Of a DNA stretch of 64,000 nt, positions 35,070 to 58,144 are shown in pieces. A program made the translations under genes and the position numbers. Origin of the DNA: Thermus sp. 2.9 (GTDB taxonomy: Bacteria > Deinococcota > Deinococci > Deinococcales > Thermaceae); contig NZ_JTJB01000010.1 of the NCBI RefSeq assembly GCF_000794385.1, positions 1-64,000 of the forward strand. Direction: 5' to 3'. The notes under the pieces are model-generated. The model was not told the origin of the DNA. It saw nothing but the letters and a program-made list of their open reading frames with translations, and did no database searches. Numbering within the stretch: the stretch's first letter is position 1; every line of letters begins with the position of its first letter.

Positions 35070-35119
35070 TCCGGGATAGGGCGTAAGCCGGGTTCTGTTT
35101 TTTGCGGTCATCTCTCTGG
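35070..35119 (-). pseudogene. 3'-terminal remnant of an RNase P RNA gene
   Basis: Minus-strand bases 35,119-35,070 read CCAGAGAGATGACCGC, then AACAGAACCCGGCTTACGCC and TCCCGG. This is the 3' end of bacterial RNase P RNA (P4 3' strand and P1 3' strand). About 45 of 49 bases match the intact gene at 57,130-57,180; differences include two in P1, so it derives from a distinct allele. Similarity stops exactly at 35,119, next to TGTAATGG. Confidence 0.85.
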
Positions 35120-35248
35120 TGTAATGGAGCGCGCTTGTTGTTAGTTGGGCCGGGCCCGACTAAAGGCGAAGCAAGGCGAAAGAAGCCGATAAAGAAGGCG
35201 AAAAGAAGCGGCGGGCTCCCGAAAAAAGGCGGCGGTTTGGCGGAGGGC

Positions 35249-35274
35249 AATCGCTCACGCTTTTAGGACAGTAA
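35249..35274 (+). repeat. 26-bp direct repeat, copy 1 (putative transposase site)
   Basis: AATCGCTCACGCTTTTAGGA plus CAGTAA; an identical copy starts exactly 140 bases downstream, and a diverged inverted copy lies at the right margin (about 56,760-56,782). Confidence 0.7.
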
Positions 35275-35306
35275 TGCGGGTCAGTGCGATGCCCATCGGA
35301 AAAGGA

Positions 35307-35686
35307 CGCTGTCTCAAGGTGGTTTAGTGCGTTCTGAAGCCGCTGACCGGGGCAATCTTTGACTTAGGTGAGTCATGCTTTTGGGGCAAATCGCTCACGC
35401 TTTTAGGACAGTAAAAGAGGGCGATGAGGAAGGCAAAAGCGCCCGTTGATGTAAGCCCACTTTATAGCAAACCGCGCAAAGTTGATGAGAGGAAGAAAGC
35501 GGCTACAGAAGGCGGAAAACGCCGTTATGCGGTCGGGTTGCATAGCTGAGACAGCGTGAGACAGCGTCGGAGGGGGGCTTGAGACAGCGTGAGACAGCGT
35601 AGCCCGATGCCCAAAAGGGATGGGAATGCCCATCGTTATCGCATTATGCGTTGCATGCATAGTTGAGACAGCGTGACGCTGTCTCA
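35307..35686. repeat. Dispersed TGAGACAGCGT repeats
   Basis: GACGCTGTCTCA at 35,307 (inverted), then TGAGACAGCGT at about 35,548, 35,558, 35,579 and 35,590 (two back-to-back pairs), and TGAGACAGCGTGACGCTGTCTCA as a 23-bp palindrome at 35,664. Looks like multiple binding sites for one protein. A related ACAGCGTC occurs at ~56,724 near the right margin. Confidence 0.65.
35389..35414 (+). repeat. 26-bp direct repeat, copy 2 (putative transposase site)
   Basis: Identical to 35,249-35,274. Repeated long sites at set distances near an end are what MuA-type transposases bind. Confidence 0.7.
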
Positions 35687-35807
35687 GCCCATAAACTAAA
35701 GGTTGTTTTAGCGTATGCTAATGAAAAACTCATGAAAAGCGCTAAAATACCTAGCCCTGAGCCTTAGCCTTCCCAGGGAAGGGGCCTCCACCCTGGACCA
35801 AAGCATG

Positions 35808-42456: not shown

Positions 42457-43104
42457 CTAGAGCCTGCTCCGCACCTCCACCACCCGGCCCACGATCTCCG
42501 CCACCTGGTCCAGGGGAATGACGGGAGGCCCGTTCTCCTCGGGGTTGGTGGAGTAGAGGGCCCCGTTCTTGAGGAGCTTCACCACGTACTCCCCGTTCTC
42601 CAGCCGGGCCACCACGATGGCCCCTGGGTGGCCCTTGTCCTCGGTGTTGACGATGATGACGTCCCCGTGGCAGATGGGGCGCTTCCCGGCGCACATGGAG
42701 TTGCCCCGCACCTTGAAGGCCGCGAGGTGCCGGGCGTCCCCCTTGACCCGCACGGGGACGGTGCGCTCCTCAATCTCCTCCAGCTGGGAAGGGCCGCCGC
42801 CCACGTAGCCGAGGATGGGGATATGCCTTTCGCTCCGCCATTCGCTACCGGGGGCTTCCGGTTCTAGTCGGTAGAGGAGTTCGTGCGCGGGTACGTCTAG
42901 GGCTTTGGCTAGGGCCACTAAGGTATCTACGCTTGGTTTTACCCATGTTCCCGCTTTGGTTTGGCGCCCCCTCACGAGGTAGTACAGGGTTCCCCGAGAG
43001 ATGCCGGTGCGCCGGGAGAACTCTTCCAGGCTGTCCACCCCCATCTCCTGCATCTTCTGCAGGATGAGGTCGGTAAAGGGCCCGTTGAGCTTGGCGCTTG
43101 ACAT
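42457..43104 (-). CDS. LexA/CI-type phage repressor
   Basis: A 215-aa repressor: helix-turn-helix at ~25-50 (SLEEFSRRTGISRGTLYYLV), a linker with a possible self-cleavage GG in GYVGGGPS (~101), and an S24 peptidase domain with the serine in RGNSMCAG (~136) and the lysine in EYVVKLLK (~176). Like LexA and lambda CI it should undergo RecA-stimulated self-cleavage, so induction by DNA damage is likely. In Mu itself the repressor is not of this type. ATG 43104 has AGGAGGG upstream. Confidence 0.88.
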   Translation of the reverse strand: MSSAKLNGPFTDLILQKMQEMGVDSLEEFSRRTGISRGTLYYLVRGRQTKAGTWVKPSVDTLVALAKALDVPAHELLYRLEPEAPGSEWRSERHIPILGYVGGGPSQLEEIEERTVPVRVKGDARHLAAFKVRGNSMCAGKRPICHGDVIIVNTEDKGHPGAIVVARLENGEYVVKLLKNGALYSTNPEENGPPVIPLDQVAEIVGRVVEVRSRL

Positions 43105-43149
43105 ATGTCGCACCCTCCTGATAGCATACCCTACAGGATGCGACATATG
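43098..43149. promoter_or_regulatory. Lysis-lysogeny operator between repressor and Ner-like gene
   Basis: ACATATGTCGCA (43,101-43,112) is repeated inverted as TGCGACATATGT (43,139-43,150), with inner CCTG/CAGG arms. A plus promoter TTGACA (43,098-43,103)-18-TAGCAT (43,122-43,127) and a minus -10 TATGCT overlap between the arms. Binding of either regulator to the two arms would close both promoters. Confidence 0.7.
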
Positions 43150-43428
43150 TTGGCAACTAAAATTGACCCGGCCAAGCTCAAGGCTGCCATGAAACGCAAG
43201 GGATTGACTCCGAGAACCCTGGCCGAGCGCATGGGCCTAAACCCCTCCACAATCCGCTACTACCTCTCCGGAAAGCGCGGCAAAAGACCTTCTTACGCTA
43301 CCCTTTTGGCGCTCGCAAATGCGCTGGGTTTGGAAAGCGTAGAGGAGATTTTGGCCTCTTCTTTGACTTCTGATTTCACAAATGTAGGCAACAAGGAGGA
43401 AAGCGATGCCCTGGCTTCCCGTGGATGA
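43147..43428 (+). CDS. Ner/Cro-like XRE regulator
   Basis: A 93-aa XRE-family protein: TLAERMGLNPSTIRYYLSGK is the helix-turn-helix, followed by a dimer helix (YATLLALANALGLESVEEIL). It starts next to the right operator arm (ATG 43147; ATG 43138 is also in frame) and precedes the transposase, the place of Mu ner. Expected to turn down the early and repressor promoters after infection. Confidence 0.8.
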   Translation: MLATKIDPAKLKAAMKRKGLTPRTLAERMGLNPSTIRYYLSGKRGKRPSYATLLALANALGLESVEEILASSLTSDFTNVGNKEESDALASRG

Positions 43429-45355
43429 GGCAGCCGAACTTATGAGCATCGGAGAACGCACGGTATGGCGGATCGTGGCCCGCCATCGCATCCCCACCCG
43501 CAAGGAGAAGCACGGCCGTACCTACCGCACCCTGGTGGACGTGAACTTGCTCGCCTTGGTCTTGGGGAAGGGGCCTATCCCGGGGGCCGATGTAGAGGCT
43601 TTGCCTCTTCCCGAGAGGGCTCTTCCCACCGCTAGGCCCGCCCTCGAGGCCCACCTCTCCCGGATCGCCGCGGAGGCCCGGGACCTCCCCCGGGGGCTCA
43701 AGTGGGACCTCATCAAGGAGGAGGCGCAGCGGCTCGGCGTCACGCCCAACTACCTGGCCCGGCTCCTCCGCCGCTATGAAGCGGGGCAACTCCTGTATGC
43801 ACGGCGCCCTCGGCGGGACCGGGGAACTCACCGGGTGCCCGCGGAGCTGAGGAAGCTCGTGGTGGGCCTCAAGCTCGCCCATCCCCGGGCGAGCGCCCGG
43901 CGGATCCTGCGCATCCTAGAGGCCAACGACCCGGGCCTCCTCCTCTACCGGCCCTACTCCACCGAAACCCTGTTCCGGCTTTCCGAGGCCACGGTACGGC
44001 GCATCCTGCGGAAGGCCGAGGAGAACCCCGCCTTCCGCTACGCCCTCCTCTCCGAGGAGGGGAGGCGGGAGTTCGCCCGCACCTGGGCGGGGCACGTCCT
44101 GGCCGAGTACCCCATGCAGATGGTCATGGTGGACATGACCAGGTGCGACGTTTTCGTCTACCTCCCCGAGGAGGACCGGATGGTCCGCCTCCGCATCCAC
44201 GTGGCCCTGGACGTCTACTCGGGGGCGGTGCCCTCCCTCGTCTTCAGCCGGGAGGAGAGCCAGGTCCCCACGGACCAGCTCCTTATCCTCATGACCCAGG
44301 ACAAGACGGCCATCGTGCCCGACTGGGACGTGCGGGGCGTGCCCGAGCGCATCTACTGGGACAACGGCAAGGTCTACCGCTCGGAGAAATCGGAGCACTG
44401 GGCCCGCACCCTGGGGATTGAGCTCGTCTACTCCCGGCCCCACGTCTCCCACACCCGGGGGAAGGTGGAGCGCTTCTTCGGGGCCTTCCACCAGACTTTT
44501 GAGGCCCTGCTCCCCGGCTACGCGGGCTCGGACGCCACGGAGCGGGACTCCTCCGAGCTCCGCCGCCTCCTCCAGAACACCCGGCGCTGGGTAGCGGAGG
44601 GGATGCCCCCCGAGCGGGACCCCTACCCCGACCGCCTCCTCCTGGAGGAGGAGTACAAGGGCCGCGCCCTCCAGTGGCTCCTCGGCACCTGGCACCGGGA
44701 GCCCCTGGAGGACGGTCTCACCCGTCTGGACCTCTTCCGGGCCTTCGTCCCCCGGCACCGGCTCGCGGACTTCCGCCTGGAGGACCTGTACCTGGCCGCG
44801 GCCTACCAGGTGGAGCGGGTGGTGCGGGGGAACGGCACCGTGCAGTACCGGGGGCGCACCTGGTACTTGGACCCCCGCCACGGGAGCCTCCTACCCTGGC
44901 AGGGGCAGAAGGTGGTGCTCCTGGACGTGCAGGTCCTCCCGGGCCAGCCCCTCCGGGTGGCCCTCAAGAACCCGGACGGCACCCTGCGGGTCCTCGGGGA
45001 GCTCCTCCCCGAGCCCCTGCGGGCGGACAGCCTCGAGGCCCGCGCCAAGCGGGCGGCCGACCGGGCGGCCATCCGCGCCCTGCAGGAGGAGGCGCGCCGC
45101 CTGGTGGAGGAGCTTTCCCCCGCCATGCGGCTGGAAGACATGCTGGAGCGCCTCTCCGGCCTCGCCCCCCTGCCCCGGCGGGAGCGCATCACCCTCCGGG
45201 CCCAGGAGCTCCCTGCCCCTTCCCCGGAGGAGATCGCCCGCGGGGCGGAGGAGCTCGCCGCCGAGCTGGAGGACGACCTGGTTCTGGACCCCATCGCCCT
45301 GGGGGAGCAGTGGCTAAAGGAGCGCGGCCTGCTGCCCCGGGGCGAGGAGGAATAG
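43406..45355 (+). CDS. Mu-type transposase (MuA-like)
   Basis: A 649-aa DDE transposase. N-terminal winged helix that begins WLPVDEAAELMSIGERTVWR, then end-binding helices, then an RNase H-fold core with D243 (MVMVDMTRCD), D319 (IYWDNGKVY) and E355 (KVERFFGAFHQTF), a D(35)E spacing, then a beta barrel and a C-terminal basic/helical region for MuB contact. It cuts the phage ends and joins them to target DNA. Strong ribosome-binding site AAGGAGG. Overlaps the Ner-like gene by 23 bases. Confidence 0.93.
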   Translation: MPWLPVDEAAELMSIGERTVWRIVARHRIPTRKEKHGRTYRTLVDVNLLALVLGKGPIPGADVEALPLPERALPTARPALEAHLSRIAAEARDLPRGLKWDLIKEEAQRLGVTPNYLARLLRRYEAGQLLYARRPRRDRGTHRVPAELRKLVVGLKLAHPRASARRILRILEANDPGLLLYRPYSTETLFRLSEATVRRILRKAEENPAFRYALLSEEGRREFARTWAGHVLAEYPMQMVMVDMTRCDVFVYLPEEDRMVRLRIHVALDVYSGAVPSLVFSREESQVPTDQLLILMTQDKTAIVPDWDVRGVPERIYWDNGKVYRSEKSEHWARTLGIELVYSRPHVSHTRGKVERFFGAFHQTFEALLPGYAGSDATERDSSELRRLLQNTRRWVAEGMPPERDPYPDRLLLEEEYKGRALQWLLGTWHREPLEDGLTRLDLFRAFVPRHRLADFRLEDLYLAAAYQVERVVRGNGTVQYRGRTWYLDPRHGSLLPWQGQKVVLLDVQVLPGQPLRVALKNPDGTLRVLGELLPEPLRADSLEARAKRAADRAAIRALQEEARRLVEELSPAMRLEDMLERLSGLAPLPRRERITLRAQELPAPSPEEIARGAEELAAELEDDLVLDPIALGEQWLKERGLLPRGEEE

Positions 45356-45365
45356 GAGGTAGCGC

Positions 45366-46160
45366 ATGGGAAGGAAGGCGAACGGCGACCAGACCTTGGC
45401 CCTCATTGACGAGGCCCTGGGCATCGTCATGGGGGAGGCGGAGCTCTGGAAGGACCCCCGGGACGGGTTCATCCCCACGGAGGGGGCGAAGGCCCTCTTG
45501 GGGCACCTCCACCTGGTGGCCCAGGAGGGCTTCCCCCTGGCCCTGGTGGTGGGCCCGGCGGGGGTGGGGAAGACCCTCACCTGCCGCTACTGGGCCCGGG
45601 AGCACGAGGCCCCCTGGGTGCGGGCCCAGCCCAGCTACTCTCCGGCGGCCCTCCTGGAGGATCTGGCGGTGGAGCTCCGCATCACCCGCACCAAGACGTT
45701 CCGCGTCCTGCTGAGCATGGTGCGGGACGCCCTCCTCATGAGCCCCAGGGTGATCTTCGTGGACGAGGCCCAGCTCCTGGACCGCCCAACCCTGGAGACG
45801 GTGAAGTACCTGGCGGACGAGACCGGGAGCTCCTTCGTCCTCATCACCTCGGAGGAGTTTGAGGGACAGATCCGGCGCCACCGGGACATTGAGAGCCGCA
45901 TCGGCACCGTGGCCCGCATAGGCCCCATTTCCCTCCAGGAGACCCAGGCCATCTACGAAAACTCCGGCTACTCCCAGGAGACCCTGGCCGAGCTCCACAC
46001 CCTCACTGGGGGGATCCTGCGGGACATCGTGCGGCTCATGCGGCAGATGGACCGGGTGGTCCAGTGGAGCAGCGAGCGGGGCCTCACTAAGGCCGCCTTC
46101 ACCCCGGCCCACGTGCGCCGGGTGGCGAGCCGCCTGAACCTCGCGGGGGGTGCGCGGTGA
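45366..46160 (+). CDS. Transposition target-selection ATPase (MuB-like)
   Basis: A 264-aa AAA+ ATPase with Walker A GPAGVGKT (~62-69), Walker B VIFVDEAQLL (~129), a sensor-like LITSEEFEG and a helical end. In Mu, MuB coats DNA, delivers target to MuA and gives target immunity. It directly follows the transposase with 10 bases between. Confidence 0.92.
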   Translation: MGRKANGDQTLALIDEALGIVMGEAELWKDPRDGFIPTEGAKALLGHLHLVAQEGFPLALVVGPAGVGKTLTCRYWAREHEAPWVRAQPSYSPAALLEDLAVELRITRTKTFRVLLSMVRDALLMSPRVIFVDEAQLLDRPTLETVKYLADETGSSFVLITSEEFEGQIRRHRDIESRIGTVARIGPISLQETQAIYENSGYSQETLAELHTLTGGILRDIVRLMRQMDRVVQWSSERGLTKAAFTPAHVRRVASRLNLAGGAR

Positions 46161-46495
46161 AGCGCTACTTCTTTGACTTCGCAGGCCAGAAAATCCCCAT
46201 CCGCCGGGATGAGGCCACGGAGTTTTACGAGGTGGACGAGGAGGGGAACATAAACCGCAAGCCCCTGGTGATGCTCCTTGGGGACGGCTCTTGGGTGTTG
46301 GAGGGGCGGGAGTTTTACCTCAACCGCCTGGGCAAGCGCGTCCGCTACGAGGTCGTCCACGTGGAGTACGAGGTGGAGCTCCACCAGCCCAGGGGCCTGT
46401 ACGGCCAGCTTAGGCGGCGTGCCTTGGTGAAGGCCGTCCCCGACTGGCAAGAGATTGATGTGGCCGTGAAGGAGGCCCTTCGTGAACAGGGTTGA
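46157..46495 (+). CDS. Early phage protein, unknown
   Basis: A 112-aa beta-rich protein (KRYFFDFAGQKIPIRRDEAT, LLGDGSWVLEGREFYLNRLG). It overlaps the MuB-like gene by 4 bases. No family recognised; its place is that of the semi-essential early genes of Mu. Confidence 0.65.
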   Translation: MKRYFFDFAGQKIPIRRDEATEFYEVDEEGNINRKPLVMLLGDGSWVLEGREFYLNRLGKRVRYEVVHVEYEVELHQPRGLYGQLRRRALVKAVPDWQEIDVAVKEALREQG

Positions 46496-47870: not shown

Positions 47871-48087
47871 GGGACCGGTGCTCGTGCCCTGCCCGGTGGA
47901 AGGGTGCGAGAGGGCCCTCACTGTTCCAGCGCTGGCCCCTGACGGGGCGGTGGGGCTTTGCGTCTGCCTGGCCGTGCGGCTCCGGCTCACGTGGATCTAC
48001 GGGGGGCCGCCCGAGTACGGGCGCACGCCGCACTTGACCGTCGTGGGGCCTGCAAGGGGGAGGACGTATGATCCGGGAGCGGCTTAG
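47854..48087 (+). CDS. Small cysteine-containing early protein
   Basis: A 77-aa protein with CPVEGCE and, 24 residues on, CVC. A zinc site is possible. It overlaps both neighbours. Unknown. Confidence 0.45.
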   Translation: MGERSKGPVLVPCPVEGCERALTVPALAPDGAVGLCVCLAVRLRLTWIYGGPPEYGRTPHLTVVGPARGRTYDPGAA

Positions 48088-49430: not shown

Positions 49431-49690
49431 TGGACCCCAAAGAGGCCCTGAACGTATTGGCGCAGGCGGCCCTCGAGGGGGCGGCGGGCGGGGAAATCCT
49501 GCGGGTCTACCAGGCCCAGGAGACCCTGGCCGAGGCCCTCAAGCTCCTGGAGGAGCGCCGCCGGGCCCTGGAGGCCCTGGAAGCCCGCCACCGGGCGCTG
49601 GAGGCCCGCTTCCGCCAGCTGGACGAGGCCCGGGGCCGGGCCCTCCTCCTGGTCCTGGAGGCCCACAGCCTGCTCAGGAGGCAAGCATGA
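49430..49690 (+). CDS. Coiled-coil early protein
   Basis: An 86-aa helical protein with an ALEALEARHRALEARFRQLD coiled coil. It overlaps both neighbours by a few bases. Confidence 0.5.
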   Translation: MDPKEALNVLAQAALEGAAGGEILRVYQAQETLAEALKLLEERRRALEALEARHRALEARFRQLDEARGRALLLVLEAHSLLRRQA

Positions 49691-50504
49691 GGAACCTTTT
49701 GCTTTTCCTGCTGATCCTGGCCTATCTCAGCACCCTGGCCATGAGCACCGGCCACCTGGCCCAGTGGTACGCCCTCTCCTTGGGGGGGCTCCCCCCCTGG
49801 CTCGCCTGGGGCCTGGCGGCGAGCCTGGAGTTCACCGCCTTCCTCCTCTCCCTCCTCTCCAACTCCCTCCTTCGGGGCTCGGCCTGGGCGGGGGCGGGGC
49901 GGTGGCCGCCCTGGCCCTGGTGTGGCTCGGCAACGCCCTCTCCATGCACCGGGCGGCCCCCGGGGTGGCCCTGTGGGAGACCTTGGCCATGAGCCTCTTC
50001 GTCCCCGTGGGGACCTACGTGGTGGGGAAGGTGGTGGGGGAGATGGTCCGGGTGTCCCCCAAGGGAGCCACGTTGGACCGGGAGGGGTCCGGGCAGGCGG
50101 TACCGGGTGGTACCTCCGCCCGGAAGAGCGGTACCGCGGTGGTACCACGCCCCCCCTTCGCCGGTACCGAGGAGGCCCGCGAGGCGGTACCGGAAGGGGC
50201 CGGGGTGGAACCTGAGGTGCCGGTACTGGCGTCCGGTGGTACCGCCCCCGTCCGGGAGCGGACCACCATCCGGTACCAGGAGTCCCGGGCGATGGAGCTT
50301 AGCGTGGAAGGGGAGGGCCGGGCCGCCGAGGTCCTGCGGGCCCTCTCCCGGTACCGGGAGCCCGTGACCCTCACCGCCCTGGTCCGGGACCTGGGGTGGC
50401 CCAAGACCACGGTCCGCCGCTGGCTGGACCGCTTGGAGGACCAGGGGCTGGTCCACCGGACTGGGGAAGGATGGACCCTGAAGGAGGAGGGCCGCTATGC
50501 ATGA
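49687..50504 (+). CDS. Membrane protein with C-terminal winged helix, frame broken
   Basis: Joined across a one-base shift at about 49,888-49,903 (G-rich run), the product would have four transmembrane helices (LLLFLLILAYLSTLAMS, WGLAASLEFTAFLLSLL, AVAALALVWLGNAL, LAMSLFVPVGTYVVG), a ~75-residue low-complexity linker coded by a GGTACC-rich stretch, and a winged helix (LTALVRDLGWPKTTVRRWLD). This would be a membrane-anchored DNA-binding protein. The membrane part recalls DUF2637/Spd-type proteins. As written it is two frames; the second could be expressed alone. Confidence 0.55.
50099..50355. repeat. Cluster of nine GGTACC palindromes
   Basis: GGTACC starts at 50,099, 50,109, 50,130, 50,141, 50,163, 50,186, 50,238, 50,272 and 50,350, with a one-off copy GGTACT at 50,222. 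The first six lie 0, 10, 31, 42, 64 and 87 bases along, close to multiples of 10.5. They fall in all three codon phases (Gly-Thr, Val-Pro, Arg-Tyr), so the repeat is a DNA feature and not a protein repeat. Confidence 0.8.
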
Positions 50505-56565: not shown

Positions 56566-56787
56566 CCGCCCCGCCATCCCACCCCCCGATTTGAAAGCGC
56601 TTACACGGCCCTGTAACCCCCCTGGAAGGCCCGGGAAGGGGGTGGCCTGGCCTTCCCTTAGCCCCGGCCTCCCCCCGCCTTTTTGGGCCTTTCAGGCCGG
56701 GTTTCCTCCCTCCTGTGCACAGCGTCTTTCCCTCTCCGGGAGGGCGCTCAGGCGGGTTTCTGTCCTGGAGCGTGAGCGATTTCCTCA
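56566..56787. other. Right margin of the prophage
   Basis: A 220-base stretch without a gene. It ends CTGTCCTGGAGCGTGAGCGA plus TTTCCTCA (56,760-56,787), which matches in inverted orientation the 26-bp repeats of the left margin (shared CTGTCCT and AGCGTGAGCGATT). ACAGCGTC at ~56,724 recalls the other left-margin repeat. The final CA at 56,786-56,787 is a plausible Mu-type end; rnpB's -10 box is only 16 bases further. Confidence 0.5.
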
Positions 56788-56814: not shown

Positions 56815-57189
56815 TGCCCCGGGACGGGGGCGCGGTCGCGCCCAAGGGCCAACCCCCTTGGGTGAGGAAAGTCCGGGCACCATAGGGCGGGGTGCCAGGT
56901 AACGCCTGGGCGGGGTAACCCGACGGAAAGTGCCACAGAGAAGAGACCGCCAGCGGCCGGGGCTTCCCCCGGTGCGGGCAAGGGTGAAACGGTGGGGTAA
57001 GAGCCCACCGCGCCTCCTGGAAACAGGGGCGGCACGGCAAACCCCACCCGGTGCAAGGCCCGGTAGGCAGGAAGGGCTTGCCCGGCCCGCCAGAACCTGC
57101 GGGATGGGCCGCTTGAGGCCGGTGGCGACACCGGTCCCAGAGAGATGACCGCGGAAAACAGAACCCGGCTTACGCCCCGTCCCGGGGCC
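56815..57189 (+). ncRNA. rnpB: RNase P RNA (type A)
   Basis: Catalytic RNA that matures tRNA 5' ends. P1 closes perfectly: GCCCCGGGACGGGG near the 5' end with CCCCGTCCCGGGGC at 57,174-57,187. The universal core is present: GAGGAAAGTCCGGGCACC at ~56,862, GGTGAAACGGTGGGGTAAGA at ~56,982, and AGAGAGATGACCGC / ACAGAACCCGGCTTAC at the 3' end. Ends are placed from the P1 helix and are approximate. Unlike the remnant at 35,070, no strong U-tract terminator follows; only GCCCCCATGAGGGGGC. Confidence 0.95.
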
Positions 57190-57253
57190 CCCATGAGGGG
57201 GCCTGGGCTTTCCAAGGCGAGCTATGACACGGGAACGAGTTTTGATGATTGTA

Positions 57254-58144
57254 ACCCAAGTTGCTACCTATCCCCTGGATCTGAAAAAATAGTGGCCGCT
57301 ATGCTTTCCCGTCTCATAGCGGCCTTTTGCATTATAGACGACGCCCTGCAAGCCATGGGCTACAAGGATGACCCCCAAGCCAAAACGCCCGCCTCCGCCA
57401 TCCTCACCCTCGCCCTCCTTGCCGCCCTAGAGTTCGGCGGCAAGCACAACAAGGCCCTGGCCCTCGCCAAAGACCTCGGCCTCTTCACCCACGTCCCCTC
57501 CCCAAGCCGCTTCAACCGCAGGCTCCACGCCCTCTACCCCCTCCTTCTCCCCCTCCTCCACCTCCTGGCCCAGGTCTGGAAGCACCTCCACCAGGCCCAG
57601 GCGTATGCCTTGGACACCTTCCCCCTCCCCGCCTGCGAGAACATCCGCGCCCCCCGCTCCCGCCTCTTCCCGGACAAGGCCTACCGCGGCTTCATCCCCA
57701 GCAAGCGGGTCTACTTCCACGGCCTCAAGCTCCACCTCCTGGTGGACGACGGGAAGTTCGTCCACGAGGTGAACCTGACCCCGGGGAGCTTCCACGACCT
57801 CGCTTCGCTTCTCCTCCTTCCCCTGGACCTTCCCGAGGGGGCGGAGCTCTACCTGGACCGGGGGTACGAGAGCCATCTGTACGAGGACCTCCTCCGGGAG
57901 GCCCAGGAGGTTGTTCCCATGGTCATCCGCAGGAGGAACAGCCGGCGGTATCTCCCTTGGATGCAGTACCTGGCCATCGTGGGGCGGAGGGTGGTGGAGA
58001 CGGTGGGGAGCATGCTCCATCACCTCTTCCCCAGGCGCATCCACGCCGTGACCCAGGAGGGTTTCGTCATCAAAGTTCTCACCTTCGTCCTGGCCCATAA
58101 CATCAGTCTCCTGACCCAGAAGATGGCTGGGTAGCAACTTGGGT
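57254..58144 (+). mobile_element. IS982-like insertion sequence
   Basis: An 891-bp element with 15-bp perfect terminal inverted repeats: ACCCAAGTTGCTACC at 57,254-57,268 and its complement at 58,130-58,144. It is flanked by the direct repeat GATTGTA (57,247-57,253 and 58,145-58,151), a 7-bp target duplication. Ends in ACC and a 7-bp duplication fit the IS982 family. Intact and probably recent. Confidence 0.93.
57301..58134 (+). CDS. IS982-like transposase
   Basis: A 277-aa DDE transposase. N-terminal FCIIDDALQAMGYKDDPQ and LALLAALEFGGKHNKAL are IS982-type; the catalytic set appears as D in QAYALDTFPL, D in LYLDRGYES and E in RRVVETVGSMLHHLF. ATG 57301 is the first reasonable start; the open frame extends further upstream into rnpB and is not used. 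Confidence 0.9.
   Translation: MLSRLIAAFCIIDDALQAMGYKDDPQAKTPASAILTLALLAALEFGGKHNKALALAKDLGLFTHVPSPSRFNRRLHALYPLLLPLLHLLAQVWKHLHQAQAYALDTFPLPACENIRAPRSRLFPDKAYRGFIPSKRVYFHGLKLHLLVDDGKFVHEVNLTPGSFHDLASLLLLPLDLPEGAELYLDRGYESHLYEDLLREAQEVVPMVIRRRNSRRYLPWMQYLAIVGRRVVETVGSMLHHLFPRRIHAVTQEGFVIKVLTFVLAHNISLLTQKMAG

Follow-up and report, generated by a model that had tools for sequence, protein, structure and literature searches.

The window, a stretch of 64,000 nucleotides at the start of contig NZ_JTJB01000010.1 of Thermus sp. 2.9, holds the left part of a Mu-like prophage that occupies positions 35120-70980 of the contig (35,861 bp) and has its right terminus beyond the window. The prophage has TGT...ACA termini and a 5-bp target duplication, TCTGG; target duplications of 5 bp are seen in 4/4 prophages having both junctions inside rnpB. 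Its gene set is of the Mu type (MuA- and MuB-like proteins, head protease, major head protein, sheath, tube, terminase and portal), with contractile-tail genes, Mu-type head genes, MuA/MuB homologues and TG...CA ends all occurring together. A LexA/CI-type repressor with HTH_3 and peptidase S24 domains (42457-43146, reverse strand; PHROGs and domain matches) is followed by the MuA-like DDE transposase (43406-45355, forward strand; PHROG transposase, E 7.7e-46) and the MuB-like target-selection ATPase (45366-46160, forward strand; PHROG, E 3.6e-39). The interval between repressor and transposase contains the inverted repeats ACATATGTCGCA / TGCGACATATGT (43100-43151), which are common to the prophage of genome G023 and form a putative immunity operator. 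Further downstream lies a gene for a membrane protein whose C-terminus forms a winged helix (49687-50504, forward strand); it is frameshifted near 49890. In the part of PMC4605624 that treats Thermus aquaticus Y51MC23 prophage 2 and the Thermus sp. 2.9 prophage, many genes are described as Mu-like, the size is given as 36 kb and the prophage is placed between mraZ and ribosomal protein L31; that prophage section mentions neither the array described here nor rnpB, and the word 'rnpB' occurs 0 times in the main text.

The left terminus (35120-35146, forward strand, TGT...) contains a degenerate first end site and forms the junction with host rnpB. Further inside are two exact copies of a 26-bp end repeat (35249-35274 and 35389-35414), a putative transposase end site with related sites at the prophage right end, and a third, diverged end site (TCATGCTTTTGGGGCAAAT, 35373-35391) that is conserved in the left-end alignment, all on the forward strand. 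From 186 to 566 bp inside the terminus extends an array of the 11-mer TGAGACAGCGT, seven exact copies of which lie at 35306-35686 compared with 0 in 100 dinucleotide shuffles of the window. A lone copy on the reverse strand (35306-35316, an exact match) stands between the transposase-type end sites, at a position that is kept in relatives in the left-end alignment, with a spelling there sometimes unlike that of the main array. Two head-to-tail pairs follow on the forward strand, each with a period of 10 bp and one base common to both members: 35547-35567 (copies 35547-35557 and 35557-35567) and 35580-35600 (copies 35580-35590 and 35590-35600). The last two copies are inverted (35664-35674 forward, 35676-35686 reverse) and make up a 23-bp perfect palindrome at 35664-35686, spelled TGAGACAGCGT-G-ACGCTGTCTCA.

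The array is accompanied by other motifs on the forward strand. The GATGAGAG element (35484-35491) has an ATGAGA core common to 13/13 aligned left ends, the companion motif TTATGCG...TTGCATA (35525-35544) stands directly before the first cluster of the array, a second one, TTATGC...TGCATA (35644-35661), directly before the palindrome, and the TATGCTAAT element (35714-35722) forms the right flank. In the alignment of 13 left ends, most rows have variants of the companion motif ahead of each of the two array clusters, and most also keep the TTGCATA-like and TATGCTAAT elements. The initial annotation had seen at least seven copies in both orientations, with tandem pairs and a 23-bp palindrome, in a low-GC island near a transposition end, and all of this was borne out; the GC content is 0.51 at 35250-35749 and about 0.65-0.70 around it. 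Its end coordinate (35686) was right and its start (35307) one base too late. It had also taken the 26-bp end repeats for another motif interleaved with the array, and the two identical repeats at 35249 and 35389 do flank the lone copy. The DNA, called otherwise empty, is so as regards genes but not as regards sites, since the same 650 bp holds the transposase-type end sites and the conserved companion motifs.

The array is real and phage-specific. No eighth exact copy of the 11-mer occurs within the 64-kb window or anywhere in the 2.4-Mb genome, and across 27 Thermus genomes exact copies are found in this genome (G000, seven), G007 (seven) and G024 (six), always inside the homologous prophage array, with 0 copies outside prophage arrays. 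The initial annotation had named a common dispersed repeat as the finding that would tell against it, and the count across the 27 genomes shows no such repeat. Comparison of phage records with the left end gave chance matches only, and a search of viral contigs with the palindrome core ACAGCGTGACGCTGT gave 0 arrays at the 39 sites scored (on one strand) among at least 80 loci listed. A promoter scan returned a single weak forward match, at 35721-35748. Judging from the sequence, the array is almost certainly a set of protein-binding sites.

A relative of MuA is present in 15/50 Thermaceae genomes, and an array directly after the end sites was found in 17/18 further Thermus-type left ends (G007, G024, G023, G011, G012, L031, L033, L037, L038, which is cut, L170, L178, L181, L182, L183, L188, L192, L193 and L195), a set that includes the near-duplicates L037/L038, L183/L188, L192/L193 and L178/G007. 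The one left end in which no array is recognisable, L195, has end-like repeats. Of 21 tail-tube loci, eight stop before the left end, and among the other 13 L186, L187, L190 and L191 repeat records already counted. In the other Thermaceae, the array was at the same place with another word in 4/4 readable left ends; the left end was located in G028, G031, G033 and G044 of nine such genomes, and G027, G035, G043, G048 and G046 (a cut contig) stand outside this count.

The place of the array is thus kept in these left ends and its word, that is, the spelling of the repeat, changes between phages. Word A, TGAGACAGCGT, is found in this window (G000), G007, G024, L170, L178 and L181, and word B, TGGCACAGCGT, in G011 and G023; the words other than A and B were assigned by eye. 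They are word C, TGTCGCAGCGT, in G012 (degenerate); word D, GTAGACAGCGT, in L031, L037 and L038; word E, GTTCACAGTG, in L033 and L182; word F, GTTCGCACCGT or GTTCGCAGCGT, in L183 and L188; and word G, TTTCGCAG followed by T or C, in L192 and L193 (degenerate). The other Thermaceae have TGGCGGAGTGG (G031, G033 and G044) or TGTCCAAGCTGG (G028). Within one phage nearly all copies of the array, the inverted ones too, switch word as a set, and counterparts of the palindrome are present in G007, G024 (imperfect), G023, G011 and L037. The number of tandem copies varies: G007 has four consecutive ones, G024 three and this window two. The lone copy near the end sites can be of a differing type, B in G007, G024 and L178 and D-like in L033 and L182, and a lone copy with another word than the main array means either that binding is tolerant or that the lone copy is unused. 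In L031, L183, L039 (G011) and L052 (G012), the extreme left terminus is duplicated over a short length (TGTAA...TGTAA...).

If a reader protein is shared between two phages, the word should be shared too, and by this logic candidate readers can be eliminated. MuB and the excisionase-like protein at 48068 (the latter compared in G000 and G024 versus G011 and G023) are, like the small terminase discussed below, nearly identical across A and B phages, and they therefore fail as readers. An elimination scan was made of 35 left and early genes (34 of them scorable) against nine close phage pairs with different arrays; it covered genes up to 56.3 kb, and to the right of this point tail-region genes at about 62-66 kb likewise split A versus B. 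Three 40-residue windows differed in every pair and survived: residues 9-48 at the N-terminus of the transposase, the linker of the membrane protein (49687-50504), and the start of ORF 50951, which is probably misannotated. The transposase N-terminus is the sole DNA-binding domain to have passed the scan.

A second test took 3212 seven-residue windows from 29 genes in ten phages under the rule that the same protein window goes with the same DNA triplet. Zero violations were found in 20/3212 windows, 16 of the 20 in the transposase and, in those inspected, in its HTH, a result that any very variable domain would readily reach. Graded correlation of the helix with the DNA triplet did not stand out, the helix windows at residues 17-21 ranking 296-511 of 3212. 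Mantel tests on whole domains did not discriminate between the candidate readers, that on the whole transposase domain giving a non-significant p of 0.07 with L037, whose transposase is interrupted, included in the row, and what a co-segregation window scan picked up was mainly differences between lineages and gaps in the alignments. Two types of transposase head occur with word A, those of G000 and of G007/G024, which are 38% identical in the helix region; the heads of G000 and G023 are 76% identical there, and their words are different.

The first 54 residues of the transposase are a variable winged HTH, with an HTH_17 match at residues 3-41. In an AlphaFold2 model covering residues 1-250, built from 10 sequences and with a mean pLDDT of 71.5, the winged HTH takes up residues 1-52 and is joined by a disordered linker (59-75) to a helical DNA-binding region in two parts (77-231). 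The helical region matches the DNA-binding parts of Pax, Tc3 and TnsB in fold, and the closest solved sequence to the transposase is TnsB (7svw, E 3e-10). The winged HTH has its best fold matches in Xis, pSK1 Par, BldC and MerR domains (Z 5.7-7.1), and small-terminase DNA-binding domains are also among its matches. The enhancer-binding I-alpha domain of Mu (1tns; Z 4.7, rmsd 5.3 over 63 residues) ranks last among the best 50, in a list where many families tie with all Z below 8 and which is not diagnostic. Some Xis/BldC/Par-type domains bind tandem repeats head to tail; in the Thermus phage such a domain is fused to a DDE transposase.

The reading that we favour, with about even confidence, is that the array is a Mu-type transposition enhancer (internal activation sequence) that is separate from the repressor operator and has the N-terminus of the transposase as its reader. 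The transposition enhancer of Mu stimulates transposition in cis on supercoiled DNA and contains an IHF site. Passages of PMC3562280 and PMC5977238 state that it is bound by the I-alpha domain of MuA and lies nearer the L end; in the former, six MuA subunits bind the ends via I-beta-gamma and bridge to the enhancer O1-O2 via I-alpha, and the enhancer is said to guard against the pairing of wrong ends. In the Thermus phage, the central DNA-binding part of the transposase (residues about 77-231) would grip both phage ends at the 26-bp-type sites, and the separate N-terminal winged HTH (residues 1-54, followed by a flexible linker) would hold the 11-mers of the array, which lie 0.2-0.6 kb in from the left terminus. 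With the tandem copies spaced by one helical turn and others inverted, several subunits could dock side by side, and such docking would gather the left end, the enhancer and the right end into one complex. The spelling of the putative enhancer and the transposase head have diversified between phages, probably so that each phage pairs its own ends only. That the transposase binds the array through its N-terminus, and that the array works as an enhancer, is what we infer from comparison of the phages.

The likeness to the enhancer of Mu (IAS, O1-O2) lies in a cis element just within the left end, with several short sites on both strands, and in a proposed reader that is a separate N-terminal HTH domain of the transposase. 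The array at 186-566 bp is also nearer the L end, a comparison that is partly circular as the equivalence to Mu L was assigned from the array itself. Unlike in Mu, the sites are 11-mers that recur every 10 bp within the tandem pairs and also form a palindrome, all at 0.2-0.6 kb from the end, and the transposase head matches HTH_17/excisionase models and no Mu I-alpha family by sequence. The candidate enhancer at 35.3-35.7 kb also does not overlap the putative immunity operator at 43.1 kb, which lies 7.6 kb away beside the repressor; in phage Mu a single stretch of DNA serves as both (PMC3820752). Enhancer-assisted transposition is known mainly from phage Mu as its model, and with the two elements coinciding there it is difficult to tell their roles apart and to trace how they evolved. 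In the Thermus series, enhancer and operator seem to be apart, and word, head and repressor occur in different combinations among close relatives. These relatives are a ready-made set for studying how enhancer sequences are recognised by a transposase and whether self-recognition is imposed by them.

Among the other explanations, a role of the membrane-anchored winged-helix protein (49687-50504, and its homologues), which would bind the array and tether the left end of the phage to the membrane, fares best, and we consider it unlikely. The protein has a conserved membrane part, a very variable linker and a C-terminal winged helix of IclR/MarR-like fold, and it also occurs in phages of the other Thermaceae. 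In those phages, too, its gene is kept some 6 kb downstream of where the transposase begins, and in five prophages the division of the winged helix into types coincides exactly with that of the A and B arrays (G000, G007 and G024 versus G011 and G023). However, L033 and L037 have the same winged helix with different words (E and D), in G031, G033 and G044 the recognition helix is nearly identical to the A type while the word is unrelated, and the window's own gene is frameshifted in a G-rich run near 49890 with its array intact. Its winged helix gives weak generic matches to replication/partition-type families.

A site for a host protein of the nucleoid, partition or IHF-like kind is rather improbable. 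The conserved TTGCATA, GATGAGAG and TATGCTAAT around the array resemble sites of an invariant factor, and a host factor may bind these companion motifs, but the 11-mer is absent from the rest of the 27 Thermus genomes and a host factor is unlikely for it because it is respelled throughout the array from one phage to the next within a single host genus. Of the binding roles that the initial annotation had suggested (partition, enhancer, host IHF-like site), it is the enhancer that we favour; the partition role is without a family match among the prophage proteins scanned, apart from the weak generic ones of the membrane protein. Short direct and inverted repeats in AT-richer DNA are also what plasmid iterons and centromere-like arrays consist of. 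Unlike these, the Thermus array lies inside a transposable prophage and adjoins its end sites, and no replication-initiator or partition family was found among the 30 prophage proteins scanned with PHROGs.

It is very improbable that the array is a drifting tandem repeat, homogenised by slippage or gene conversion and without any reader. The varying number of tandem copies described above would be expected of such a repeat, but copies that are distant or inverted share the same changes, their spacing and order are conserved, and 17/18 further Thermus-type left ends, as well as other Thermaceae, still have an array. Still less can be said for a set of operator sites for the repressor or the Cro-like protein of the phage, as in an immunity region, and we give this reading hardly any weight. 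The clustering is indeed operator-like, as had been remarked at the outset, and the enhancer of Mu is its operator (PMC3820752, in the part cited). The repressor reading itself is contradicted, since the array differs (A versus B) under the 98%-identical repressors of G000 and G023, and separate repeats track the repressor. The repressors of G007 and G011 likewise have the same DNA-binding region with differing arrays, so the word does not follow the repressor's DNA-binding domain. The inverted repeats of the repressor-transposase interval, beside the repressor, do follow the repressor type, and G023 shares both repressor and repeats with this prophage and has another array. The repressor, the Cro-like gene and a small gene at 46157 (42457-43427 and 46157-46495) switch together between phages, which suggests that this group is an immunity module independent of the array. 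Least probable of all is a packaging (pac) signal for the small terminase, which would fit repeats near one phage end, given that Mu-like phages package from one end, and the small-terminase domains among the fold matches of the transposase head, but the small terminase (51772) is nearly identical in A and B phages whose arrays differ.

The enhancer reading can be carried one step further, tentatively and with less than even confidence. The array would be half of a swappable lock and key, in which an operator-free enhancer and a fast-changing transposase head let related phages that share an rnpB home avoid cross-pairing their ends, the Thermus branch repeatedly inserting in the essential rnpB, at many positions, and paying with its own complete rnpB. 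Both flanks of the prophage are pieces of host rnpB (a 3' piece at 35070-35119, reverse strand, identified by junction comparison, and the right-flank piece in the interval 70930-71307 of the contig), so the prophage has split the gene. A complete second rnpB lies inside the prophage at 56820-57188, forward strand (RF00010, 269 bits). Directly behind it is an IS982-family transposase gene (57145-58134). Just upstream, at 56769-56780, there is a stray inverted core of the phage end repeat, perhaps a trace of rnpB capture.

Similar rnpB insertions are present in five further Thermus genomes, and among 50 genomes the six Thermus genomes with a transposase relative of at least 65% identity are exactly the six with extra rnpB matches. 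Left flanks match rnpB in 12/16 cases; G011 matches via its right flank, and L033, L192 and L193 do not match. The insertion positions within rnpB differ between prophages, with L181 in the opposite orientation. Four of nine virus records carry rnpB; those without it are L192, L193, L032 (a near twin of L033), L195 and L037, which ends early. As arrays are found in phages both with and without rnpB, the array is not specific to rnpB insertion. Among the papers listed for Thermus, prophage integration and RNase P RNA, no title or abstract opening describes such an insertion. How a transposable phage comes repeatedly to sit in an essential RNA gene that it replaces, by targeting or by selection, is a second question that this system raises. 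In L181 (1-4108), about 60 bp containing an rnpB piece separate a right phage end from a left one, an arrangement that represents either two insertions in one rnpB or a rearrangement.
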